Positions 8,857-24,252 of a stretch of 32,958 nucleotides of DNA are shown in pieces (position 1 is the stretch's first letter; each line of letters opens with the position of its first letter). The notes under the pieces are model-generated. The model did not search any database, had not been told where the DNA came from, and worked only from the letters and a program-made list of their open reading frames with translations. The translations under genes were made by a program, and so were the position numbers. The stretch is from a filamentous cyanobacterium CCP2 (GTDB lineage Bacteria; Cyanobacteriota; Cyanobacteriia; Elainellales; Elainellaceae): the NCBI GenBank assembly GCA_003003615.1, contig PVWD01000036.1:1-32958 (forward strand). Reading direction: 5' to 3'.

Positions 8857-8887
8857 AGCAATTTTTCAATGAAGGGATAAATGGGTA

Positions 8888-8927
8888 GATGAGTGGATGA
8901 GTGGATGAGTGGATGAGTGGATGAGTG
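8888..8927. repeat. Five tandem copies of the octamer GATGAGTG between coxB and coxA
   Basis: Five exact, uninterrupted copies of GATGAGTG lie in the 78-bp gap between the coxB stop and the coxA start (CACTCATC on the transcribed strand). Such a simple array is prone to slipped-strand changes in copy number, which would alter the coxB-coxA spacing in 8-nt steps. No coding function. Confidence 0.9.
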
Positions 8928-8934
8928 GGGGATG

Positions 8935-9903: not shown

Positions 9904-10535
9904 GTGCGTCTCCCGACTGTTGACTCAATGAAAGCAATTCATGAGGTTTCTCTGCTTATACCAGAAGCTTTTATGCCTGAGGAAACCGATCTTCTCTATC
10001 GATTCAGTTCACCCTATCAGCCCTGTACTCAATTACCGAAACTGTGATGCTGCACTGGATTGAAACGAGAATTTTGAATAGGGTACAGGTATTTTTGGCC
10101 CAAAAAATGAGTACTTATGGGAAAGGGGATTAGTATTTCGGTTTCCGATTTAGTTCAGGTTGAACAATACGAAGGGTAATACCAAAGGCGATCGAAAAAA
10201 TGATGGATTGATGCTGTGCAATCTGTAATCAATATTACTAAATGAATGCCTAAAATGCTTGCACTGAACATATTCTGGGCAAAGGTTAAGAAATTATTTA
10301 ACCGTTTAAGTTGAACAAAACAGAAGAGCTTTTTTCCTTATAACTTTATTTACAATTGGCGATCGATCCACTTGATTGAAATCCTTGAGAGTTGCTGCTT
10401 GAGTGGCAACTCTTATCTGACTTGCGCTCACATATCACAACAGAAGATTTGGCATTGGCAATCTGGCTCAAGACTCTCTCACGCTGATTCACCGGGAGCT
10501 ACCCCACTCCACTTGTCGTTAATCCGTGTAATCCT
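9904..10535. other. Long divergent intergenic region between coxB and the Fe-S regulator
   Basis: About 630 bp without a convincing gene. It must hold the promoters of the coxBAC operon (leftward) and the CnfR/PatB-like gene (rightward). I see an NtcA-like palindrome at 10225-10238 and a possible TATAAC -10 element at 10339-10344, about 190 bp before the regulator's ATG. A small inverted repeat, TTTTTGG-C-CCAAAAA, lies near 10092-10106. An open frame from 10372 has no ribosome binding site and overlaps the regulator in another frame, so I leave it out. Confidence 0.6.
10225..10238. promoter_or_regulatory. NtcA-like box GTA-N8-TAC
   Basis: GTAATCAATATTAC matches the GTAN8TAC consensus of the global nitrogen regulator NtcA and has 5-bp palindromic arms (GTAAT/ATTAC). 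A TAAAAT element lies 12 bp downstream, closer than the roughly 22 bp usual for NtcA-activated promoters, so the match is not ideal. The site lies about 300 bp from each divergent start. Confidence 0.35.
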
Positions 10536-12143
10536 ATGGCGCACACCATCACGAACCATTGTACGCAGTGTGGCGATTGTGTTCCTCAATGTCCCAAAGG
10601 TGCCATCAAATCTGAAGGCAGCGAATTATGGATCGATCCCATGCTGTGTGATGACTGTAAGGATGATGCTGTTGAACCACAATGCGTGAGTGTCTGCCCA
10701 ACTGATCTACCTCCGATGCGGTTACAGGCGAAAAAAGGACGCTGCAAAACAATCGCTAGAACTTTTCCCAGCCCCGACCTATTTGCCAATGGTAAAAGTA
10801 GCCTCTTTGCTTCTGCGATCGTGGTGTGGGAAGCCTGTAATGTGCTAGCGCAGCGCCAGTCGCTCCCCTGGAAAACTGATGCAGATGGGAAACTCTGCTA
10901 TGAACGCCAGGTTAATGGAGGGCGAGGAACGCTTGCTTTTCGCCTCACCCATCCCCTCGACTCAGAGCCATCTATTCCATTTGACAGCAAGACTGCTCAA
11001 GCTGAAATTGCCAGTTGGGATGTGCGAGCCGCCGGACTGCACCTGATTTATGCAGCTCACGCCATTGCGCTAGAACAGCCCTGGCAGCAGGAATTCATCA
11101 TCAGCGATCGTCAAATTGAAGACTATCTGGGACTAGAGAAACGCAAGGATCTTAGCAAACTCGCCAAGCTAACCTTAATTAAAACTCTAGTTCAGCAACC
11201 CTGTAGACTTCACCTGGATATGAATTGGCTTCAACAGGGAAGTATTCACAGTTTCTCGCTAGAGCAAAGTCGCCTATGGCATTTGCTAGACATTCAGCAC
11301 CACTTTCAGGAAGATGACCTGGGCTGCAAACATCTGACTGGACTGACCTTTAGAATTAGAGCAGGAATGTGGGCAAACTACTTTCTAAACCGTGACGGAT
11401 ATAAAAGTCGTACCGCTTTTTATCAATACGGGTTATTGCCAAAATCCCTGCTTACCACCGTGATGAGTATCTGGCAACAACACGAAGGTGCTGCTCGTAT
11501 CCTGTTGTGGCTATTGTTCAAAACCAAGATGGGACAGGAACAGCGAGTTACGATACCTACCTTGATGCGGATTGCCTACGGGGAAGCAAAACTAACTCAA
11601 GCTTCTGCACAACCGGACGGACGCAAGCGATTACTCCGTGCGTTTGAAAGTGACCTGGAAGTGCTCAATCATTATGGCATCAAACCCATTTTTGACCCTG
11701 TAACCTATCCATCCGATATTCAACCCCTCTGGGTTAAGCTGGCTGATTTACCAGATGATGCAGAAGCGGCTCTAGAATTTTGGACTGAGGATGGCAATCG
11801 GAACTGTCGGCTAACGGATGCGGCTCCTAGAGGTAAGTGGAATCGCCTGATGAATGCCCGCCTGCTCTGCTTTGAACTACCAGACGATTGGCAGAGTTCT
11901 CCGACGAAGCAGTCGAAACAGAAGCGCCGCCGCAAAACACGCCACCAAGTACTCCTTCAATCCCAATTAACGCTTTCAGGACAACAAATTATCGAAGCGA
12001 GACAAAAACATCAATTGAGTCAACGTGCCCTGGCTCGTCAAATTGGCAAAAGCCAGAGCTGGGTGCGAGACGTAGAACGAGGTCGTTTTCAACCCACTAC
12101 GCAAGATCAAGTACTCCTGCGTCAAGTGCTGGGGATTGGGTAA
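10536..12143 (+). CDS. CnfR/PatB-like transcriptional regulator: 2[4Fe-4S] ferredoxin domain plus C-terminal HTH
   Basis: A 535-residue protein. The N-terminus is a bacterial-type ferredoxin with C9, C12, C15 and C19, then C38, C41, C50 and C54 (CxxCxxCxxxCP and CxxCx8CxxxCP), suited to two oxygen-labile [4Fe-4S] clusters. A ~400-residue middle region has no family I can name from sequence. The last ~55 residues form an XRE-like helix-turn-helix (LSQRALARQIGKSQSWVRDVERG) after a basic stretch (KQKRRRKTRHQ). This architecture and length match CnfR of Leptolyngbya and PatB of Anabaena, activators of nif genes at low oxygen. Here the gene heads a pfl/adhE island and is divergent from cytochrome oxidase, so control of fermentation is inferred. 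It could instead be the genome's only cnfR. Confidence 0.85.
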   Translation: MAHTITNHCTQCGDCVPQCPKGAIKSEGSELWIDPMLCDDCKDDAVEPQCVSVCPTDLPPMRLQAKKGRCKTIARTFPSPDLFANGKSSLFASAIVVWEACNVLAQRQSLPWKTDADGKLCYERQVNGGRGTLAFRLTHPLDSEPSIPFDSKTAQAEIASWDVRAAGLHLIYAAHAIALEQPWQQEFIISDRQIEDYLGLEKRKDLSKLAKLTLIKTLVQQPCRLHLDMNWLQQGSIHSFSLEQSRLWHLLDIQHHFQEDDLGCKHLTGLTFRIRAGMWANYFLNRDGYKSRTAFYQYGLLPKSLLTTVMSIWQQHEGAARILLWLLFKTKMGQEQRVTIPTLMRIAYGEAKLTQASAQPDGRKRLLRAFESDLEVLNHYGIKPIFDPVTYPSDIQPLWVKLADLPDDAEAALEFWTEDGNRNCRLTDAAPRGKWNRLMNARLLCFELPDDWQSSPTKQSKQKRRRKTRHQVLLQSQLTLSGQQIIEARQKHQLSQRALARQIGKSQSWVRDVERGRFQPTTQDQVLLRQVLGIG

Positions 12144-12252: not shown

Positions 12253-12287
12253 TTCCTCACAAGTTCCCCAAATTCTTTTTTTATAAA
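12253..12287 (+). promoter_or_regulatory. pflB promoter with TTCCTCA-N4-TTCCCCA direct repeat and TATAAA -10 box
   Basis: TTCCTCA (12253-12259) and TTCCCCA (12264-12270) form a direct repeat with 11-bp spacing. A TATAAA at 12282-12287 follows. The repeat falls where a -35 box should be and no TTGACA-like -35 is present, which suggests an activator-dependent promoter. Positions 12257-12287 match 25 of 31 bases with the region upstream of pflA. A leader of about 120 nt separates it from the pflB ATG. Confidence 0.65.
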
Positions 12288-12413: not shown

Positions 12414-14642
12414 ATGTTTGAGCAATGGCAGAGATTCAATGCTGGAAATTGGATAAACGAAATTGATGTGCGCTGCTTTATTCAAACTAACTACACGCCC
12501 TACGAGGGGGATGAATCCTTTCTGGTGAGTGCAACGGAGCGGACACAAACGCTGTGGAACCAGGTGACTCAACTGATGGCGCAAGAGCGAGAAAAGGGAA
12601 TTCTCGATGCCGATACGGCTGTAGTTTCCACAATCACCTCCCACCGCCCTGGCTACATTAACCGAAATCTAGAGCAAATTGTGGGCTTGCAGACCGATAA
12701 ACCCCTGAAACGAGCCATCATGCCGTTTGGGGGCATTCGTGTGGTAAAAACCTCCCTGGAAGCCTACGGTTATCAACTTAATCCCACCACTGAGGAAAAC
12801 TTTACCCGATACCGCAAAACTCACAACGATGGTGTATTCGATGGATACACCCGCGAGATGGGTCTGGCCCGTCACTCTGGCATTATTACGGGATTACCCG
12901 ATGCCTATGGTCGGGGACGAATTATTGGTGATTATCGACGAGTGCCGTTGTATGGAGTCGATCGCCTGATTGGCGACAAGAAAACCCAACTGGAATCACT
13001 GGAAGTTGACACGATTGATACCGATACGATTCGATTGCGCGAAGAGATCAACGAACAAATCAAAGCCTTATTTGAGCTAAAAGCAATGGCAGCCAGCTAT
13101 GGCTTCGAGATTGGTTGCCCCGCTGCGAATGCTAAAGAAGCGGTACAGTGGCTTTATCTGGCGTATCTGGCAGCCGTGAAAGAGCAGAATGGGGCAGCTA
13201 TGTCGCTGGGACGGGTATCCACGTTCCTGGATATTTATTTTGAGCGAGATTTGCAGCAGGGTATCGCCACCGAAGCCGAACTTCAAGAGTTGATTGATCA
13301 GTTTGTCATGAAGCTGCGGATGGTGCGTTTCTTGCGAACGCCCGAATACAATCAACTCTTTTCTGGCGATCCGACGTGGGTGACGGAATGCATTGGCGGC
13401 ATGGGCGAAGACGGTAGGCCGCTGGTGACAAAGACAAGCTTCCGGATGCTCAACACCCTGGTTAACCTGGGCCCCGCACCTGAACCCAATCTGACTGTGC
13501 TGTGGTCAGAGCGGCTACCGCAAGCTTTCAAGCGATACTGTGCCAAAGTTTCAACCGAAACCAGTTCGATTCAATACGAAAATGATGATTTAATGCGTCC
13601 TTACTGGGGCGATGATTATGCGATCGCCTGCTGTGTCTCTGCCATGCGAATTGGCAAACAAATGCAGTTTTTTGGGGCACGGGTGAATCTGGCGAAATGT
13701 CTGCTATATGCCATCAACGGCGGCAAGGATGAAAAATCCGGTGAGCAAATTGCCCCTGCCTATGCCCCCATTACCGCTGACGACCTGGATTACACCGAGG
13801 TAATGCAGAAGTTTGATCGCATGATGGACTGGCTGGCTAAAGCCTACATCAATACGCTCAATGTGATCCACTTTATGCACGACAAATACTGCTACGAGCG
13901 GCTAGAAATGGCACTGCACGATCGCGATGTCTTCCGCACGATGGCTTGTGGCATTGCGGGACTGTCGGTTGTTGCAGATTCGTTGTCAGCTATCAAATAC
14001 GCTAACGTGAAAGTCCTTCGGGATCAGCAGGGCTTGGCAATTGGCTATCAAATTGCAGGAGATTTTCCCAAATACGGCAACAATGACGATCGCGTGGATC
14101 AGATTGCAGTCGATCTGGTGAAACGCTTCATGAACAAACTGAAACAACATCAGACCTATCGCAATGCCGTTCCCACGCAATCCGTACTTACCATCACCTC
14201 GAATGTTGTTTATGGCAAGAAAACAGGCAATACACCGGATGGACGAAAAGCAGGTGAACCGTTTGCACCGGGTGCGAATCCAATGCATGGACGCGATAGC
14301 AAGGGAGCGATCGCTTCTCTGGCGTCTGTTGCCAAACTCCCCTACGCTTATGCCCAAGATGGTATCTCAAACACGTTTTCAATTGTGCCGGGAGCATTAG
14401 GGAAAACGGAGGGCGATCGCCTCACCAACCTCGTCGGGATGCTGGACGGCTACTTCCATGATGGCGGGCACCACATCAATGTGAATGTCCTAAATCGAGA
14501 CATGCTGTTGGAGGCAATGGATCATCCCGAACTGTATCCCCAACTGACCATTCGTGTCTCTGGTTATGCAGTCAATTTCATTAAACTAACGAGAGAACAA
14601 CAGTTGGATGTGATTAAGCGAACGTTCCACGATCGGTTCTAA
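12414..14642 (+). CDS. pflB: Pyruvate formate-lyase (formate acetyltransferase)
   Basis: A 742-residue glycyl-radical enzyme that converts pyruvate and CoA to acetyl-CoA and formate without oxygen. The thiyl pair is C406-C407 in IACCVSAM. The radical glycine is G717 in RVSGYAVNF near the C-terminus, after the conserved HHINVNVLN segment. Length is close to E. coli PflB (760). The ATG at 12414 follows an AGGAGG ten bases upstream. The glycyl radical is destroyed by oxygen, so in an oxygen-evolving organism it must act in the dark or under anoxia. It depends on PflA encoded 2 kb downstream. Confidence 0.97.
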
Positions 14643-14769: not shown

Positions 14770-14819
14770 TGCTCAAGTTTTAATCTCTACAACAATCTCC
14801 AATGCCAAAGGAGGCAGTC

Positions 14820-16484
14820 ATGCAACAACCATCATCCCCTGTTGGCAATGACGGTTCCGATCGCGATCGTGCGTATGACCTGATTTTGATAGGGTCTGGG
14901 ATGGGCGCGCTCACTGTTGCCAGCCTGATGGCGCAGCTACGGGGCAAACGAGTTCTGGTTTTGGAACGCCACTTCAAGGCAGGTGGTTTTACCCACGATT
15001 TCAAGCGACAGCAGTTCCATTGGGATGTTGGTATTCACTACATTGGGCAGATGGACGAAGGCTCATCAATGCGGCAGATATTTGATCTGGTGACGCAAAA
15101 GAGTGTGCAGTGGAACAAGATGCCAGAACCGTTCGAGCGGTTTATCTATCCAAACTTGACGTTTGATTTGTATGGTGATCCGAAACGATTTCAAGCTGAT
15201 CTGATTTGGCAATTTCCAGAGGAAAAGCGATCGATTCAGAAGTATTTTCGAGACTTGAAGAAAGCGGCAGCGGTTCTATTTCTACATACTTTGCAGGTGA
15301 ATGGGAATTGGCTGTTTAAACTAATCAGTTATCTAGCTGAACTTTGGAGCGGAATCGGGCTAGACCTAACAACACAGGATTATCTCGATCGCCATTTCAC
15401 CAATCCTCAACTAAAATCACTGTTGGTTTCTCAATGGGGCGATTATGGTATTCCGCCCAGGCAAAGCCCGTTTGCAGTTCATGCAACGCTTGTCACCCAC
15501 TATCTGAACGGAGGCTATTACCCAATAGGGGGTGCAGGAACGATCGCGCAAAGTGTTAAAGCAATTGTTGAAGGGCAGGATGGGCGGATTTTGCTCAATC
15601 GAGAAGTGACTGAAATTTTGATTGAGAACAATCGGGCGGTTGGAGTAAAAGTTTGCAAAGTGAATGCGTTAGCCGAGCGTGAAGAAATCTATTACGCACC
15701 TGTGATTGTTTCTGATACAGGAGCCGCAACCACCTATCTCAAGTTGATTCCAAGGACTTATCCAATTCCATTTCGAGCAGCATTGCAGCAGTTTATTCAG
15801 CAGCATTCATCCATTACTAACGTAACGCTGTATTTAGGTTTATCGAATGATCCCAAGACGCTCGGTTTTCGGGGTGAAAATCACTGGATTTATGAGGCGA
15901 TGGATCACAATCAAACCTATGAGCAGCGCCAGCAGTGGATATTCAGTGGCAAAGCCCCACAATGCTATTTGTCTTTTCCATCCTTGAAAGATCCACATGC
16001 AAGGGCACACACCGCAGAAATGGTCGCCTGGGTGGATTACGACGCATTCACGCAATGGAAAACACAACCCTGGCTGCATCGCGATGGAAATTATCAGCAA
16101 TTAAAAGAACGCATCAGTCAAACCCTGATTCAACAGGTCGATCGCCATTACCCAGGTTTTGCCAAGCTCGTAACCTATCATGAACTCTCAACCCCGCTCA
16201 CGAATGAGCATTTCACCGGGCACTTTAAGGGCGGAATCTACGGCTTGCCCGCGATTGCAGAACGCCTTGCACCCCAAAACACTGCCTGGACAAAAGCTGA
16301 AACTCCAGTTCCCGGTTTGTATCTAACGGGTGCAGATCTGTACATGGGCGGCATTGTGCCTGCAATATTAGCCGGAATCATAACCGTGAGTTGTCTTCCG
16401 GATGGCATTTCGCTGCCACAAGTGTTTGTAACTGCGTCAAAGCAACAGAAGCGCGATCGCTTAAATAAGCCGAAGTCTACTTGA
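14820..16484 (+). CDS. FAD-dependent oxidoreductase of the CrtI/RetSat (retinol saturase-like) family
   Basis: A 554-residue flavoprotein. The ATG at 14820 is chosen because a strong AAAGGAGG (14807-14814) sits 5 nt before it; the earlier in-frame ATG at 14802 would put that site inside the coding region. A dinucleotide-binding GSGMGALT motif near the N-terminus is followed by LVLERHFKAGG and by FHWDVGIHYIGQM, a signature I associate with all-trans-retinol 13,14-reductases and carotenoid desaturase/isomerase relatives. A C-terminal FAD motif reads PGLYLTGADLYMGGIVPAILAG. It lies between pflB and pflA on the same strand. The substrate is unknown; a carotenoid or other polyene is likely, and a direct role in fermentation is not obvious. 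Confidence 0.82.
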   Translation: MQQPSSPVGNDGSDRDRAYDLILIGSGMGALTVASLMAQLRGKRVLVLERHFKAGGFTHDFKRQQFHWDVGIHYIGQMDEGSSMRQIFDLVTQKSVQWNKMPEPFERFIYPNLTFDLYGDPKRFQADLIWQFPEEKRSIQKYFRDLKKAAAVLFLHTLQVNGNWLFKLISYLAELWSGIGLDLTTQDYLDRHFTNPQLKSLLVSQWGDYGIPPRQSPFAVHATLVTHYLNGGYYPIGGAGTIAQSVKAIVEGQDGRILLNREVTEILIENNRAVGVKVCKVNALAEREEIYYAPVIVSDTGAATTYLKLIPRTYPIPFRAALQQFIQQHSSITNVTLYLGLSNDPKTLGFRGENHWIYEAMDHNQTYEQRQQWIFSGKAPQCYLSFPSLKDPHARAHTAEMVAWVDYDAFTQWKTQPWLHRDGNYQQLKERISQTLIQQVDRHYPGFAKLVTYHELSTPLTNEHFTGHFKGGIYGLPAIAERLAPQNTAWTKAETPVPGLYLTGADLYMGGIVPAILAGIITVSCLPDGISLPQVFVTASKQQKRDRLNKPKST

Positions 16485-16593: not shown

Positions 16594-16628
16594 CTCTTCA
16601 CAAGTTCCTCAGATTCTTTGCCTATAAC
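16594..16628 (+). promoter_or_regulatory. pflA-adhE promoter with second copy of the direct-repeat element
   Basis: The element reads CTCTTCA (16594-16600), CAAG, TTCCTCA (16605-16611), then TATAAC (16623-16628) as the -10 box. The block TCACAAGTTCC is identical to that before pflB and the distance to the TATAA is the same. It lies about 50 bp upstream of the pflA ATG, so it would start a pflA-adhE-synthetase transcript. Confidence 0.65.
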
Positions 16629-16678: not shown

Positions 16679-17443
16679 ATGCAAGTCTCACCATCCCACA
16701 TCTTACGTTCCACCAGTGTTCAAGGTTATATCCATTCGATCGAAACCTGCGGCACGGTAGATGGGCCAGGAATCCGGTTTGTTATCTTCACCGCTGGCTG
16801 TCCGCTGCGTTGTCTGTATTGCTCCAATCCAGATTGCCGTTACATAGAGAACGGTCAGAAAGCGACTGTTGATGAGTTGATGGAAGAGATTCAGAAATAC
16901 ACCGCCTACATGAATGCCTCTGGAGGTGGCGTGACGGTGAGCGGTGGAGAGCCATTGTACCAACCACATTTTGTTGCAGAGATTTTTAGACGCTGCAAAG
17001 CATTGGGTCTTCACACGGCTCTGGATACGTCTGGATACTGTGACTTGCAGATAGCAAAACCTGTGATTGAGCAAGCCGATTTGGTGTTGCTGGATATCAA
17101 ATCCTTTGAGCCTGACATTTACACCAAAGTCACCAGCGTTTCACTGGAGCCAACCTTGGCGATCGCCAACTACCTGAATCAGATCAATAAACCAACCTGG
17201 ATTCGATTTGTGTTAGTTCCCGGTCTAACTGATGCAACCCACAATGTTGCAGGATTGGCTGATTTTGTGGCAACGCTGACAAATGTTGAGAAGGTAGAAA
17301 TCTTACCGTTTCACAAAATGGGCGAATACAAGTGGGAGCAATTGGGCTATGAATACCAGCTCAAAGAGACGCAACCTCCCACGCCAGAGCAAGTGCAGGC
17401 GGCGCAGGCGATTTTTCGCAGTCGCGGAATCAACGTAGTCTGA
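16679..17443 (+). CDS. pflA: Pyruvate formate-lyase activating enzyme (radical SAM)
   Basis: This 254-residue enzyme uses S-adenosylmethionine and a [4Fe-4S] cluster to make the glycyl radical on PflB. The cluster cysteines are C41, C45 and C48 in GCPLRCLYCSN. The SAM-binding GGVTVSGGEPLYQP stretch and the DTSGYC strand follow, then LLDIKSF. DGPGIRFVIF just before the cysteines is typical of PflA. The length is normal for the family. An AAAGGTAG lies 6 to 8 nt before the ATG. An earlier in-frame opening is not supported. It is followed at 62 bp by adhE. Confidence 0.96.
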   Translation: MQVSPSHILRSTSVQGYIHSIETCGTVDGPGIRFVIFTAGCPLRCLYCSNPDCRYIENGQKATVDELMEEIQKYTAYMNASGGGVTVSGGEPLYQPHFVAEIFRRCKALGLHTALDTSGYCDLQIAKPVIEQADLVLLDIKSFEPDIYTKVTSVSLEPTLAIANYLNQINKPTWIRFVLVPGLTDATHNVAGLADFVATLTNVEKVEILPFHKMGEYKWEQLGYEYQLKETQPPTPEQVQAAQAIFRSRGINVV

Positions 17444-17483: not shown

Positions 17484-17504
17484 CACCGCCCAATGGAGAT
17501 GACT

Positions 17505-20201
17505 ATGAGAATTACCAGTTTACAAGATCTGAAAACACTGATTCAACAGGTTAAAACTGCACAGGAACAGTATGCAACCTGTTCTCAGGAACAAGTCGAT
17601 CGAATTTTCAAACAAGCGGCACTCGCTGCCAATACCGCCCGTATCCCGCTAGCGAAACTAGCCGTGGAAGAAACGGGAATGGGGGTAGTGGAAGATAAGG
17701 TGATCAAAAATCACTTTGCTTCGGAATACATTTACAACAAGTACAAACACGAAAAGACCTGCGGCGTGATTGAAGTAGATCAGTCATTTGGGATTCAAAA
17801 AATTGCTGAACCTGTGGGAGTCATTGCCGGAATTATCCCAGTGACGAACCCTACCTCCACTACACTTTTCAAGGCGCTGATTGCCCTCAAAACCCGCAAC
17901 GCGATTATCTTCTCCCCCCATCCTCGTGCGAAACGATCGACCGCTGCCGCCGCCAAAGTAGTGTTAGAGGCAGCGATCGCCGCCGGTGCACCCGAACACC
18001 TGATTGGCTGGATTGACGAACCCACTGTAGAACTCTCACAAGCGTTAATGCAGCATCCCGATATCAAGCTGATTCTGGCAACAGGTGGGCCGGGTATGGT
18101 GAAAGCCGCTTACTCATCGGGACATCCTTCCTTGGGCGTTGGTGCAGGCAACACGCCAGCAGTGATTGATGCCACCGCAGATATTCAAACAGCAGTCAGT
18201 TCTATTCTGCTCAGCAAGACCTTTGACAACGGCATGATCTGTGCCTCAGAGCAATCGGTAATTGTGGTGGATTCCATCTACGAACAGGTGAAGCAAGAAT
18301 TCATCGATCGCGGCGCTTACTTCCTATCTCCCGAAGCGAAAGTGAAAGTAGGTGATGTACTACTGAAAGACGGGCATTTGAATCCAGCCATTGTCGGACA
18401 ATCGGTAGGAACGATCGCCCAACTGGCGGGGATTGGTCTGGTTTGTCTGGAGGATCAGAGTCAGCAGCGCAGACAAAGCGAGAGCCTCAATCCATTACCC
18501 TGCACTCTGCCCAAAGTGTTGATTGCTGAGGTCGAAGCGATCGGGGTTAGCGAACCGTTTGCCTACGAAAAACTATCACCTGTGCTGGCGATGTATCGAG
18601 CCAGCAGCTTTCATGATGCGGTGCAGAAAGCAGAACAACTGGTAGAATTTGGAGGACAGGGACATACCTCTGTGCTGTACATCAATCCAGCAAATTGGGA
18701 TGACATTGCCTATTTCAAGCACGCGGTCAAAACATCACGGGTGTTGATTAATACTCCGTCTTCTCAAGGGGCGATCGGCGACCTCTACAACTTCAAGCTT
18801 GATCCATCCTTGACGCTGGGCTGTGGCACCTGGGGCGGTAACACGGTATCCGATAATGTCACACCCCATCACCTGCTCAATATCAAAACCGTGTCCGAGC
18901 GGCGGGAAAATATGCTGTGGTTCCGCGTACCACCGAAAATCTATTTTAAGTCTAGCTGTCTACCTGTAGCGTTGCGTGAGTTAGCCGGTAAACAGCGGGC
19001 CTTTATCATCACTGATAAACCCTTATTCGATCTAGGTTTGGTTGACAAACTAACCACCGTTTTGGATGAGATCGGAGTCAAACATGATGTCTTTCATGAT
19101 GTCGAACCTGATCCAACTTTGACGAATGTCAACAAAGGCTTAGAGTTACTGCGGAGTTATCAACCGGATGTGATTATTGCGATCGGCGGCGGTTCTCCGA
19201 TGGATGCAGCAAAAGTTATGTGGTTGATGTATGAACATCCAGAAGTAGAGTTTGAAGGCTTGGCAACCCGGTTCATGGATATTCGCAAGCGGGTGTATGA
19301 GCTACCGCCTCTGGGACAGAAAGCCCTGCTGGTGGCAATTCCTACGACCTCCGGTACAGGGTCAGAGGTGACACCGTTTGCTGTTGTCACTGATGAGAAA
19401 GCAGGCATCAAATATCCTCTGGCGGATTACGCCCTCACGCCGAGTATGGCGATCGTCGATCCAGAACTGGTGCTGAATATGCCCAAAAAATTGACGGCTT
19501 ATGGCGGCATTGATGCGTTGACCCATGCCCTGGAATCTTATGTCTCTGTGCTAGCGACTGAATTTACAGAAGGGTTGGCGCTGGAAGCGATCGCCCTCCT
19601 CTTCCAGTATTTGCCTCGCGCCTACAACAAGGGTGCAACCGATCCAGAGGCACGGGAGAAAGTTCACTATGCCGCGACGATCGCTGGCATGGCCTTTGCC
19701 AATGCTTTCCTGGGTGTCTGTCACTCCATGGCGCACAAATTAGGCTCAACCTTCCATGTGCCGCACGGATTGGCGAATGCTTTGATGATTTCCCATGTGA
19801 TTCGCTACAATGCCACCGATATTCCCTTCAAGCAAGCGATCTTCCCACAGTACAAGTATCCTCATGCTAAAGAACGCTACGCCCAGATTGCCGATCATTT
19901 GCGCCTGGGTGGAGATACGCCGGATGAAAAAGTAGAACGGTTAGTGGAGGCGATCGAACACCTGAAACATCAGCTTGAAATTCCTCGCACTATCAAAGAA
20001 ACCCTGTCCGATGATGAACAGAATTTCTACAGCAAAGTAGAACAGATGGCAGAACAGGCGTTTGATGATCAATGCACAGGCGCAAACCCCCGCTATCCAC
20101 TAATCCAGGATTTGCAGGAGCTTTACACGCTGGCGTATCTGGGTTGCCGAACGGAATCAGCGCTCTATTACCAGCCCGAAACGGTGCCTGTCCTGGCATA
20201 A
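17505..20201 (+). CDS. adhE: Bifunctional acetaldehyde-CoA/alcohol dehydrogenase
   Basis: An 898-residue two-domain enzyme reducing acetyl-CoA to acetaldehyde and then ethanol with two NADH. The N-terminal aldehyde dehydrogenase half has the catalytic cysteine in DNGMICASEQ. With the ATG at 17505 this is C246, the same number as in E. coli AdhE. This start also has a GGAG (17495-17498) 6 nt upstream, so I prefer it to the ATG at 17493. The C-terminal half is an iron-dependent alcohol dehydrogenase with AIGGGSPMDAAK for NAD and the metal histidines in CHSMAHKLGSTFHVPHG. AdhE usually forms spirosomes. The next gene starts 9 bp after the stop. Confidence 0.97.
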   Translation: MRITSLQDLKTLIQQVKTAQEQYATCSQEQVDRIFKQAALAANTARIPLAKLAVEETGMGVVEDKVIKNHFASEYIYNKYKHEKTCGVIEVDQSFGIQKIAEPVGVIAGIIPVTNPTSTTLFKALIALKTRNAIIFSPHPRAKRSTAAAAKVVLEAAIAAGAPEHLIGWIDEPTVELSQALMQHPDIKLILATGGPGMVKAAYSSGHPSLGVGAGNTPAVIDATADIQTAVSSILLSKTFDNGMICASEQSVIVVDSIYEQVKQEFIDRGAYFLSPEAKVKVGDVLLKDGHLNPAIVGQSVGTIAQLAGIGLVCLEDQSQQRRQSESLNPLPCTLPKVLIAEVEAIGVSEPFAYEKLSPVLAMYRASSFHDAVQKAEQLVEFGGQGHTSVLYINPANWDDIAYFKHAVKTSRVLINTPSSQGAIGDLYNFKLDPSLTLGCGTWGGNTVSDNVTPHHLLNIKTVSERRENMLWFRVPPKIYFKSSCLPVALRELAGKQRAFIITDKPLFDLGLVDKLTTVLDEIGVKHDVFHDVEPDPTLTNVNKGLELLRSYQPDVIIAIGGGSPMDAAKVMWLMYEHPEVEFEGLATRFMDIRKRVYELPPLGQKALLVAIPTTSGTGSEVTPFAVVTDEKAGIKYPLADYALTPSMAIVDPELVLNMPKKLTAYGGIDALTHALESYVSVLATEFTEGLALEAIALLFQYLPRAYNKGATDPEAREKVHYAATIAGMAFANAFLGVCHSMAHKLGSTFHVPHGLANALMISHVIRYNATDIPFKQAIFPQYKYPHAKERYAQIADHLRLGGDTPDEKVERLVEAIEHLKHQLEIPRTIKETLSDDEQNFYSKVEQMAEQAFDDQCTGANPRYPLIQDLQELYTLAYLGCRTESALYYQPETVPVLA

Positions 20202-20210
20202 TGAATTCTG

Positions 20211-23021
20211 GTGCAACTTATGCAAATTCCCATGTCCTCTGCGTCTGACCGCACCTGTGATAGTTTGCGCAGCGCTGCGCAACAACTCTATCGTTCAGAA
20301 CACCGTCCGCTAGATGCTATCTTTGCACCCAAATCAGTCGCCGTGATTGGCGCAACCGATCGACCCGGTAGCGTCGGGCGAATTGTGTTATGGAATCTGC
20401 TCAGTAGTTCCTTTGGGGGCACGGTTTACCCGGTCAATCTCAAACGGCATAGCGTTCTGGGTATTAAAGCTTATCCTACTATTGCCGATGTTCCAGAAGC
20501 TGTGGATTTAGCCGTGATTGCAACGCCTGCATCTACCGTTCCGAGCGTAATTCAGGATTGTGTAGATGCCAATGTGAAAGGGGCGATCGTGCTTTCTGCT
20601 GGATTCAAAGAGATCGGTGCAGCCGGGATTGAACTAGAACACCAGATGCGCGAACAACTGCAACGGGGTAAGCTACGGCTGATTGGGCCCAATTGCCTGG
20701 GGGTGATGAATCCTATCACCGGATTGAATGCTACATTTGCTAATGCGATGGCGCGTCCTGGTAATGTTGGCTTTATCAGTCAAAGCGGTGCGCTCTGTTC
20801 TGCCATTTTAGATTGGAGCTTTCGAGAAAATGTAGGGTTCAGTGCCTTTATCTCGATCGGCTCCATGCTGGACGTGAATTGGGGAGACCTGATTGACTAC
20901 CTGGGAGATGACCCCAACACCCACAGCATTGTGATTTACATGGAGTCGATCGGCGATGCCCGTTCCTTCCTGTCCGCCGCCCGAGAAGTGGCCCTGACCA
21001 AACCGATCATCGTTCTCAAGGCCGGTCGAACCGAAGCCGCTGCTCAGGCTGCCACATCCCATACAGGAGCCTTAGCTGGAAGTGATGCGGTTTTGGATGC
21101 GGCATTTCGTCGGTGCGGGGTGCTGCGGGTAGATTCCATCTCTGAACTGTTTGATATGGCAGAGGTGCTGTCCAAGCAACCTCGTCCCCAGGGCCCACGC
21201 CTGACAATCATCACAAATGCCGGCGGCCCCGGTGTGCTAGCTACCGATGCCTTACTCCAACATGGGGGAAAACTGGCCCAGCTTTCACAGGAAACCATCA
21301 CCGCCCTCAATCAGCAGCTTCCCTGCTTCTGGAGTTACCAAAATCCGATCGATATTTTGGGCGATGCCGACCCAGACCGCTATCAGCAAGCCATCCAGAT
21401 CGCTGCCCAGGACTCCGAAAGTGATGGACTACTGGTGATTCTGACACCGCAGGCGATGACTGATCCAACTCACACCGCAGAACGATTGAAGACATGGATT
21501 GAACATCGAAGTTCACATCAACTGGCCAAACCGATTCTTGCTAGTTGGATGGGGGATGCCGATGTGAGCCAGGGGGAATTGCTGCTCAATCAGGCTAGTG
21601 TTCCCACCTATCGCTTTCCTGATACGGCGGCTCGTGTCTTTAGCTATCTGTGGCAATTCAGCTACAATCTGCGCGGTATCTACGAAACTCCGGTTCTACC
21701 AACCGACAGAGCATCAGAAACCCCCGATCGTCCCCTGGTTGCAGCCGTCATTACTGCGGCGCGACAGGCAAATTGCACAATTCTCACTGAAGCGGAATCG
21801 AAACAAATTTTAGCGGCATACGGTATTCCAGTGGTGCAAACCTGCGTTGCTACCAGTGAATCCGCAGCGATTGACTGTGCCGCAGCGATCGGTTATCCAG
21901 TGGTTCTCAAACTGTTCTCCAAAACTATCACTCATAAGACTGATGTGGGAGGCGTACAACTCAATCTGGTTGATGCAGAAGCTGTGCGACGAGCCTATCA
22001 GACTATTGAAACTTCTGTATCTGAAAAAGCTGGAGCCGAACACTTTTTAGGTGTAACGGTACAGCCAATGGTGCAGTTAAATGGCTATGAGTTGATTATC
22101 GGCAGCAGTCTCGATCCTCAGTTTGGCCCCGTGCTGCTGTTTGGTTCTGGTGGAAAACTGGTCGAAGTGTTTCAGGATCGAGCGATCGGTCTGCCGCCTC
22201 TCAACTCGACCCTGGCACGACGGTTAATGGAGCAGACACACATTTATAAAGCGCTGCAAGGGGTACGAGGACAACGACCAGTCGATCTGGATGGGCTTGA
22301 GCAACTGTTAGTGCGATTCAGTCAACTTGTGGCAGAACAGCGCTGGATTAAAGAGATTGACATTAATCCGCTGCTGGTATCTCCAATGGGAACAAATCGC
22401 GATTCGTCCCTCTTAGCATTGGATGCCCGCATTGTGTTACACGATCCAGCCATTCGCGCAGATCAGCTTCCAAAGTTAGCGATTCGCCCCTATCCTACCC
22501 AATACGTAACTCCCTGGCAGTTCAAGGATGGCACTGAAGTGATTATTCGTCCAATTCGTCCTGAGGATGAACCATTCGTCGTTCAGTTTCATCAAACATT
22601 GTCAGAGCAGAGCGTTTATTTTCGCTATTTTCACCTGATCAAACTGAGTCAGCGGATTGCTCACGATCGCCTCACCCGCATTTGTTTCATTGATTATGAT
22701 CGGGAAATGGCACTGGTTGCAGATTGTCAAAATCCTGAAACTGGAACCCATGAAATTCTGGCAATTGGACGACTCAGTAAACTGCACGGAACCAACACAG
22801 CAGAATTTGCCATGCTGGTCAGCGATCATATCCAGAGACAGGGTTTAGGAACAGAGTTGCTGAAACGACTGTTGCAAGTGGGACGAGATGAGCAACTCGA
22901 TCGGATTACAGCAGAAATTCTCTCTGATAACTCCGGAATGCAGCGAGTTTGCGAAAAATTGGGTTTCCATATCTCTCGCACCGCAGATCCTTCAGTTGTG
23001 AAAGCGGAAACTCAGCTATAA
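20211..23021 (+). CDS. Fused ADP-forming acetyl-CoA synthetase (alpha+beta) with C-terminal GNAT domain
   Basis: A 936-residue protein. Order of domains: CoA-binding (~35-165, with [15 protein letters not shown]), succinyl-CoA-ligase-like (~170-490), ATP-grasp (~515-735, with [22 protein letters not shown]) and GNAT acetyltransferase (~770-925, with [13 protein letters not shown] for acetyl-CoA). The phosphohistidine of ADP-forming synthetases is present as H284 in [10 protein letters not shown]. In enterobacterial Pat/PatZ protein acetyltransferases, which share this layout, that residue is reported as missing. The enzyme may therefore make acetate and ATP from acetyl-CoA, and the GNAT domain may acetylate proteins. 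GTG at 20211 is the first start; ATGs at 20220 and 20232 are equally possible since no clear ribosome binding site is seen. Confidence 0.88.
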
Positions 23022-23411
23022 GTTTCAACTCCGCTCTCCTCAATTATTTGACCGTTAAAGACAACCCTTGAGAACCAGGAATCATACTTATGCTAACCAC
23101 TTCTCCAACATATTGAACAGAGCCATTGAGGGATCAAGCAACGCTACTATTCCACGTTAGGATTTGGAGCGTTTGAGTCAGCACAGCATTTTTTGAGCTG
23201 AACAGCGCTTAGCTTTTTGCCTTGTCGTTCTAACTGCCGATACAGGCTAAAGGCTGCGACTCGATCGTCACCAAAATCAAAACGAGCTTTGGTTTGAATT
23301 TATAGAAGTAACTTGAGGAACTTGTGAGGAATACAAAAGTGATATTTAGCTGATCAAGATTGATCCTCAGCAGGTTTTTGCCACACACTCCTCTACAGTA
23401 AACAAATCCAG
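23022..23411. other. Gene-poor edge of the island left of the IS element
   Basis: About 390 bp with no intact gene. It contains the third copy of the direct-repeat promoter element on the minus strand (23299-23331) and a small inverted repeat GATCAA-GA-TTGATC (23352-23365). On the minus strand, from about 23300 to 23154, a 45-50 codon frame without a start (containing FGDDRVAAFSLYRQLERQGK) looks like a coding remnant that I cannot assign. Confidence 0.45.
23299..23331 (-). promoter_or_regulatory. Third copy of the direct-repeat promoter element, facing left, no intact gene downstream
   Basis: On the minus strand it reads TTCCTCA (23331-23325), CAAG, TTCCTCA (23320-23314), then TATAAA (23304-23299). 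Both half-repeats are perfect here, and the spacing to the -10 box is 2 nt shorter than in the pflB and pflA copies. Only a short unassigned frame remnant lies in front of it before the end of the synthetase gene. Confidence 0.5.
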
Positions 23412-23473
23412 GGTAGTGGACTAGACCTGTGGAAATGAGATAATCAAAGGGTTGTCTAGCCGAAGCTTTTGAA

Positions 23474-23764
23474 ATGGTGCTTGAACCAGTTCTTTGTCCT
23501 AGCTGTAGCAGTGATGAGGTAGTGAGACATGGGCGATCGAGTGAAGGCAAACAACGTTATAAGTGCCGCAATCGAGAGTGTTGCCGCTCCAGTTTTATTC
23601 GTGACTATAGCTACCGAGGATATCTGCCCCAAGTCAAGCAACAAATCACAGAGATGGCACTCAACGGCAGTGGCACTCGTGACACCGCTCGGGTACTCAA
23701 GGTTAGCCGCACCACTGTAACGGAAACGTTAAAAAAAAGATCGTCACCTGAAGTCGGTGAATGA
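23474..23764 (+). CDS. IS1-family transposase, InsA-like frame (zinc ribbon and HTH)
   Basis: A 96-codon frame. The N-terminus has a zinc-ribbon (CPSC...CRNRECC) and the RYKCRNREC segment of IS1 InsA. A helix-turn-helix (RDTARVLKVSRTTVTETLKK) that binds the ends follows. The frame reaches an A8 run at 23731-23738 and then reads out of frame to a stop at 23764. Joined to the next frame it would give a full IS1 transposase of about 250 residues. On its own it may act as an end-binding inhibitor, as InsA does in IS1. Confidence 0.88.
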   Translation: MVLEPVLCPSCSSDEVVRHGRSSEGKQRYKCRNRECCRSSFIRDYSYRGYLPQVKQQITEMALNGSGTRDTARVLKVSRTTVTETLKKRSSPEVGE

Positions 23765-24224
23765 AGCCCGTTTAGCAGCCCTGGAACCGACCCAAACGAT
23801 CGTTCATCTCTGCCAATGGCAGGACTTAGAGGCAGAAGCTGACGAGATGTGGAGTGATGTCAAATCAAAGCAACAACAACGGTGGTTGTGGCATGCGATT
23901 GACCATGCTACCGGGGAAGTCCTTGCCTATGTCTTGTCCCATCATCAGGATAGTGCTTTGCTGGAACTCAAAGCCTTGTTAGAACCGTTTGGCATCATGC
24001 AGTTCTACACCGATAATTGGGGTGCGTATCAACGGCATCTTGAACCTGCGTTTCACACGGTTGGTAAAACCAATACTCAAACGATTGAGCGCAAGCATCT
24101 CACTTTGCGAACAAGGATTAAGCGATTAGCACGCAAAACCATTTGCTTTTCTAAGTCCATCTGGTTGCATGATGTGGTCATTGGGTTATTCATCAACCGC
24201 TACGAGTTTGGTTTGGATATTTGA
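23733..24224 (+). CDS. IS1-family transposase, InsB-like DDE catalytic frame
   Basis: Open from 23733 just inside the A8 run; a GTG at 23757 is the first possible start inside it. All three catalytic acids are visible: D in DEMWSDVKSKQQQRWLW, D in YTDNWGAYQRHL, and E in TQTIERKHLTLRTRIKRL. The junction to the InsA frame requires a +1 shift or loss of one A. The -1 shift usual for IS1 would meet a TGA at 23749-23751. If the A-run were A7, the two frames would be one ORF reading LKKDRHLKSVNEAR. Confidence 0.88.
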   Translation, partial: KKDRHLKSVNEARLAALEPTQTIVHLCQWQDLEAEADEMWSDVKSKQQQRWLWHAIDHATGEVLAYVLSHHQDSALLELKALLEPFGIMQFYTDNWGAYQRHLEPAFHTVGKTNTQTIERKHLTLRTRIKRLARKTICFSKSIWLHDVVIGLFINRYEFGLDI

Positions 24225-24252
24225 ACCTCATCCACAGGTCTAGTCCACTACC

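Follow-up and report, generated by a model that had tools for sequence, protein, structure and literature searches.

Knowledge of how cyanobacterial fermentation and hydrogen metabolism are switched on in dark anoxia is only patchy. In enterobacteria, pfl, adhE and the hydrogenases belong to the global anaerobic regulons of ArcA/ArcB and FNR, and the sites of FNR and CRP are inverted repeats (TTGAT-N4-ATCAA or TGTGA-N6-TCACA). OmpR/PhoB proteins bind tandem repeats with a spacing of about 11 bp in place of the -35 box, and the pho box of PhoB has this layout, being an activator-dependent 11-bp direct repeat in the -35 place. For cyanobacteria, the available portion of a 2015 review ascribes the low-oxygen induction of the bidirectional hydrogenase (hox) to an unidentified system (PMC4500134), and a 2026 review, in the part accessible, gives RpaA and CyAbrB1/2, with SigE, as the hox regulators of model strains (PMC13421787). 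For the CnfR cis-element of nif promoters (Tsujimoto et al. 2016), the available text of PMC8510180 gives a position 300-600 bp 5' of the nifB starts.

The element described here is a direct repeat of the word TCCTCA followed by a -10 box, and two of its sites head the genes of a fermentation island in the window, i.e., the whole 32,958-nucleotide stretch of DNA that was analysed. It resembles the pho box (PhoB/SphR) and other OmpR/PhoB sites in its 11-bp direct repeat at the -35 place, in the predicted activator-dependent -10 promoter and in the distance of about 11 bp from the second repeat to the -10 box, but differs in the word itself, in a regulon of fermentation, hydrogenase, PEP synthase and UspA genes, and in its linkage to hybrid receiver-DNA-binding-Hpt proteins rather than a classical kinase/regulator pair. 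The ArcA/ArcB and FNR regulons are comparable in their global anaerobic control, but the element is dissimilar in sequence and FNR sites are palindromes. An FNR/CRP site was considered and rejected, the symmetry of the 89-site consensus being direct, not inverted. Low-oxygen activation in cyanobacteria is shared with the ChlR palindrome (chlAII-ho2-hemN), and control of hox with RpaA and CyAbrB1/2, which are nevertheless different proteins with different sites, in PCC 7942 and PCC 6803. The CnfR cis-element of cyanobacterial nif promoters is likewise, as far as the available text describes it, a repeated upstream element of low-oxygen metabolism with a -10 but no -35 box; it differs in its position relative to nifB, and the local nif/cnfR element (GGGTACAAGTATT, 22-bp spacing) is unlike the TCCTCA element.

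No description of the element was found in the open-licence literature searched, although it may still be described elsewhere. Neither the literal CACAAGTTCCTCA nor the phrase 'low-oxygen response element' had a match in cyanobacterial open-licence papers; the available portions of the 2015 (PMC4500134) and 2026 (PMC13421787) reviews do not mention the element, and that of the latter names no hybrid regulator of the kind proposed below. With a conserved element, its defined regulon and a named candidate for the regulator, the question of anoxic control becomes testable in many strains.

Sites and genes of the fermentation island

12253..12286, + strand: site 1, operator and -10 box of pflB, TTCCTCACAAGTTCCCCAAATTCTTTTTTTATAA, weight matrix (PWM) score 50.0; repeats at 12254-12259 and 12265-12270, -10 box at 12282-12286
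12414..14642, + strand: pflB, pyruvate formate-lyase, predicted regulon member (TIGR01255, 1223 bits)
14802..16484, + strand: CrtI/CrtISO-like FAD oxidoreductase
16594..16627, + strand: site 2, operator and -10 box of pflA-adhE-acs, CTCTTCACAAGTTCCTCAGATTCTTTGCCTATAA, PWM score 48.5
16679..17443, + strand: pflA, PFL-activating enzyme, predicted regulon member (TIGR02493, 325 bits)
17493..20201, + strand: adhE, bifunctional aldehyde/alcohol dehydrogenase, 3' of pflA (NF010378)
20211..23021, + strand: ADP-forming acetate-CoA ligase (acs) with C-terminal GNAT domain, 3' of adhE
23300..23331, - strand: site 3, before a short remnant ORF only, TTCCTCACAAGTTCCTCAAGTTACTTCTATAA, PWM score 16.8

The 18-mer of site 1, TTCCTCACAAGTTCCCCA, lies at 12253-12270 (+) and that of site 2, CTCTTCACAAGTTCCTCA, at 16594-16611 (+). 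The initial annotation had reported that these two regions agree at 25 of 31 bases and end in TATAA at the same distance, and both observations hold. The -10 boxes at 12282-12286 and 16623-16627 are equally placed, and the best common 31-mer of the intergenic regions ahead of pflB and pflA is identical at 25 positions, a value reached by none of 500 dinucleotide shuffles (mean 18.3, maximum 22). The motif that it had proposed, TTCCTCA-N4-TTCCYCA, fits site 1 but is inexact at site 2, where CTCTTCA has two mismatches, and the N4 is not free because CAAG is conserved there. In the window alone this short motif gave weak evidence, with 11 matches at three mismatches versus 5.9 expected, and a longer core was required before the signal stood out over the motif counts.

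Site 3 is a third copy besides the two recorded earlier (TTCCTCACAAGTTCCTCA at 23331-23314 on the minus strand), and its TATAA sits 2 bp nearer than in sites 1 and 2. The ORF behind it is short, lacks a usual start codon and had no match among the other sequences compared. With only this remnant downstream and an IS1-type insertion close by, site 3 resembles a promoter whose gene has been lost. The insertion (window 23412-24252, about 80 bp behind the site) has perfect 22-bp inverted ends, and its transposase is encoded in two overlapping frames split near an A-run, with expression by frameshifting likely.

Anatomy of the element

The consensus of 89 strong sites is TCCTCACAAGTTCCTCAAATTCTTTTTCTATAAC, and the refined element reads TCCTCA-CAAGT-TCCTCA-AATTCTTT-N3-TATAAC. 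The direct repeat with an 11-bp period, TCCTCA-N5-TCCTCA, is therefore close to the earlier description; its N5 is mostly CAAGT, and the conserved block runs on past the repeats as ARATTCTTT. Two columns 5' of the search pattern are also conserved (C in 81/89 and T in 66/89 sites) and complete the first TCCTCA; as they lie outside the pattern, they were not selected by it.

The element occupies approximately the -35 position, and its distance from the -10 box hardly varies; this spacing is built into the 31-nt pattern, which matched in 55 genomes and gave 0 control matches. The exceptions are a site on contig C105, with its -10 box five bases further away, and the more closely spaced site at window position 23300. 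The suggestion of an activator-type operator in place of a -35 box is supported. The features of an OmpR/PhoB-type operator were thus found together, namely a direct repeat with a period of about 11 bp (89 sites), a location in the -35 place at a distance from the -10 box that is fixed apart from these exceptions, and an associated gene with an OmpR-type DNA-binding domain, represented by the PF00486 hybrids that adjoin sites.

Genome-wide occurrence and predicted regulon

In the genome examined (6.95 Mb, 528 contigs, 96.9% complete), the exact 18-mer was found in the window only. The 23-mer core CTCACAAGTTCCYCARATTCTTT, allowing up to three mismatches, gave six sites genome-wide versus 0 for the reversed pattern, so the motif is not scattered at random. 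Three of the six lie in the window, C105:5084 precedes a quinone oxidoreductase, and C422:8197 and C501:3695 precede UspA genes. One-mismatch matches to the short motif elsewhere (L008-L014) are regarded as chance because they lack the conserved core and a properly placed -10 box. A weak look-alike of the element, TTCCTCACAGCTTTCTCAAATGATTT, lacking a -10 box, lies at the end of the nif contig (L125 10329-10346, minus strand).

Homologues of pflB are present in 126 of 390 cyanobacterial genomes. The element stands ahead of pflB or pflA in about 18 of 60 pfl loci, mostly with 1-5 mismatches and mostly with TATAA after it; it is thus conserved before orthologous pfl genes and precedes both genes here and in other cyanobacteria, which supports the proposal that they form one regulon. 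Since the sites before pfl come from several families, this amounts to phylogenetic footprinting and not to copies of one locus. The full promoter pattern CTCACAASTTCCYCAAAKTCTTTNNYTATAA (31 nt, up to three mismatches, with the reversed pattern as control) matched in 24 of 61 pflB genomes and, over the class, in 55 of 390 genomes with 107 sites, the reversed control giving 0 in every genome. We are highly confident that the element is a real, conserved control site, and both it and its regulon are well supported.

A weight matrix built from 50 sites and scanned over the loci examined returned 119 distinct sites, 21 of them without an assigned downstream gene. The genes behind the others, named by eye from sequence except where a Pfam or NCBIfam assignment was available, are usp (19), pflA (17), PEP synthase (pps/ppsA; 16), pflB (15), a DSP-like phosphatase (7), a pentapeptide protein (5), and alternative oxidase (aox), hsp20 and an NrdG-like activase (3 each), with single sites before hoxE, hoxU, psbA, phosphoketolase (xfp) and a pyruvate-kinase-like gene. 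The homologue of the CrtI/CrtISO-like oxidoreductase in G037 (L243) has its own site, and in several genomes usp and then hoxE-hoxF follow a site. In one locus (L305, G382:C1:3648001-3668000) a strong site is followed by psbA and then by hoxE-hoxF; this psbA possibly encodes a low-oxygen D1 that is co-regulated with the hydrogenase.

Most of the named target genes belong to pyruvate/acetyl-CoA fermentation, hydrogen metabolism, and stress or low-oxygen life, a gene content from which we infer that anoxia or darkness is the signal. The element provides a candidate promoter responsive to anoxia and a means of predicting fermentation genes in unstudied cyanobacteria.

A candidate regulator

A phmmer homology search with a receiver-OmpR protein encoded near one site retrieved large hybrid proteins with an N-terminal receiver, a Trans_reg_C domain of the OmpR/PhoB type (PF00486), an Hpt domain and, usually, further receivers, PAS/GAF domains, and a histidine kinase or GGDEF domain. 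Sites adjoin the genes for such hybrids in about 15 genomes. The hybrid is divergent from site-usp-hoxEF(U) in G087, G107 and G129, from a weaker site-usp-hox in G282 and from site-hsp20 in G163; a site lies between the hybrid plus receiver and a phosphatase gene in G073, G237 and G006, and sites also adjoin the hybrid in G125, G180, G183, G197, G265 and G270. Of the 30 loci retrieved with the hybrid query, 10 had a site no more than 1.5 kb away, versus 0 of 30 OmpR paralogue loci. Single-domain OmpR regulators (query L308) had no linked sites, and they are unusable for a presence test because they are too numerous.

A tree built from 68 receiver-DNA-binding sequences placed every one of the 15 linked hybrids in a single clade (support 100/99), which has 28 members, from 28 genomes; 0 of 500 label shuffles were as clustered. 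Every genome with a clade member has the element (28/28, 27 by pattern and G125 by a weaker site), versus 7/33 genomes without one (p = 3.6e-11, uncorrected for kinship). In G103, one of these seven, the site adjoins the gene of a more distantly related hybrid in which R191 and T192 are retained. The residues A189, R191 and T192 of the recognition helix, together with C171, are invariant in the clade, including the member from the source genome, whereas the paralogues differ. This single orthogroup of hybrid regulators is, from sequence comparison, a strong candidate for the reader of the element and probably the correct one. Its likely representative in the source genome is:

G000:C274:62866-63744 (L400 6867-7745): 292 aa, receiver, DNA-binding domain and tail

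The recognition helix of this protein is intact. Its receiver is degenerate, with E-P-D for E-D-D and the phospho-accepting Asp53 replaced by Glu; it has no kinase half, and there is no site close to its gene. The protein may act constitutively, respond to another signal or not be the reader.

We propose that the element serves as the activator site in a class of promoters, conserved among cyanobacteria, that switch on fermentation and low-oxygen metabolism. The two TCCTCA words, 11 bp apart and on one face of the DNA, would substitute for the -35 box, and a tandem pair of a DNA-binding protein on the repeat would recruit RNA polymerase to a sigma-70-type -10 box, TATAAC. The reader would be one hybrid two-component orthogroup, controlled probably by phosphorelay or by redox through the conserved, clade-specific Cys171 of the DNA-binding domain. 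As a whole, this explanation seems likely to us on the strength of the genomic comparisons. Whether the Cys171 hybrid orthogroup is in effect a counterpart of ArcA/FNR, directly activating a global dark-anoxia regulon (pfl, hox, pps, usp, aox, adhE and xfp) via the TCCTCA repeat, we regard as evenly balanced; if true, the low-oxygen induction of hox would thereby gain a regulator. The candidate hybrid sensor-regulator is a little-studied protein, and dozens of cyanobacteria have the element ahead of genes for fermentation, hydrogen metabolism and stress.

Alternative regulators of the element

The hybrid could instead be only a regulon member or upstream partner, with the low-oxygen site serving another regulator, either an OmpR-type paralogue or an unlinked DNA-binding protein. 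A paralogue could act as reader, since OmpR-type proteins form an expanded family in these genomes, and the linkage could also arise if the hybrids were themselves regulon members. Such a reading gains from the degenerate receiver and the lack of a linked site in the source genome's clade member, from G337 and G351, which have sites but no close clade member and thus count against the hybrid, and from G152, where sites are also followed by genes for histidine kinases and receivers that lack this DNA-binding domain. We nevertheless consider it unlikely, if worth keeping in mind, as the clade-specific linkage, the co-occurrence and the invariant recognition helix speak for the hybrid as reader. 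A further rival reading would make the element a site of ChlR, a known low-oxygen activator of the MarR type. It draws on the one site that precedes a psbA (L305), since ChlR targets a low-oxygen psbA in Synechocystis according to the available part of the 2015 review (PMC4500134). It is scarcely credible, given that ChlR has very few targets and that its palindrome, TTMCC-N3/4-GGWAA in the accessible text of the 2026 review (PMC13421787), contrasts with an 89-site consensus that has neither dyad symmetry nor GGWAA; a ChlR site was rejected on these grounds.

The initial annotation had named CnfR, encoded directly upstream of pflB, as the protein that binds the repeat, and on this account CnfR would activate pfl along with nif. 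The features concerned are:

10081..10094, + strand: GGGTACAGGTATTT, match to the nifB-nifP tandem element, single copy, between cox and cnfR
10536..12143, + strand: CnfR (PatB) orthologue, 4Fe-4S ferredoxin-like N-terminus and XRE-type HTH C-terminus

An O2-labile 4Fe-4S activator such as CnfR would suit anoxia; cnfR not only adjoins pflB but lies with pfl in a nif-type neighbourhood in the source genome, and in G006 one site is found just 3' of cnfR. Against this, the adjacency of cnfR and pfl is not conserved. Orthology of CnfR is indicated by synteny, with coxBAC, cupin, cysK and mod mostly surrounding cnfR in 80 relatives, where the neighbourhood was available; pflB stands beside cnfR in 0 of these 80, and 0 sites of the element were found in the 80 cnfR loci (1.5 Mb). 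A CnfR cis-element is expected at nif promoters and in cnfR neighbourhoods, and in the source genome it is a different tandem element that occurs there. The source genome has nifH, nifU, nifS and nifB all on C346, and its nifB-nifP intergenic region carries GGGTACAAGTATT with 22-bp spacing on both sides (L125 = G000:C346, 5687-5745 and 6134-6190). The same word recurs at the matching cox-cnfR place in the four nearest relatives. This tandem element is probably the CnfR element of the lineage, and its placement agrees with the CnfR sites described 5' of nifB in the available text of PMC8510180. Furthermore, full-length CnfR is present in many genomes with few or no sites (e.g., G220, G125 and G051), whereas G304 has six sites yet only the C-terminal half of CnfR, and G340 likewise bears a site with only that half. 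CnfR as the reader is thus unsupported, and we consider it very improbable.

In G304 and G340, both nearly complete genomes, the CnfR-like matches restricted to the C-terminal half lie at G304:C1:4283917 and G340:C6:715767. The source genome also contains a CnfR-like paralogue (L002 1420-3084, G000:C1:9918-11486) that is 41% identical and whose open frame lacks the 4Fe-4S N-terminus. Directly 5' of coxA, an 8-bp unit, ATGAGTGG, forms an array at window positions 8873-8928.
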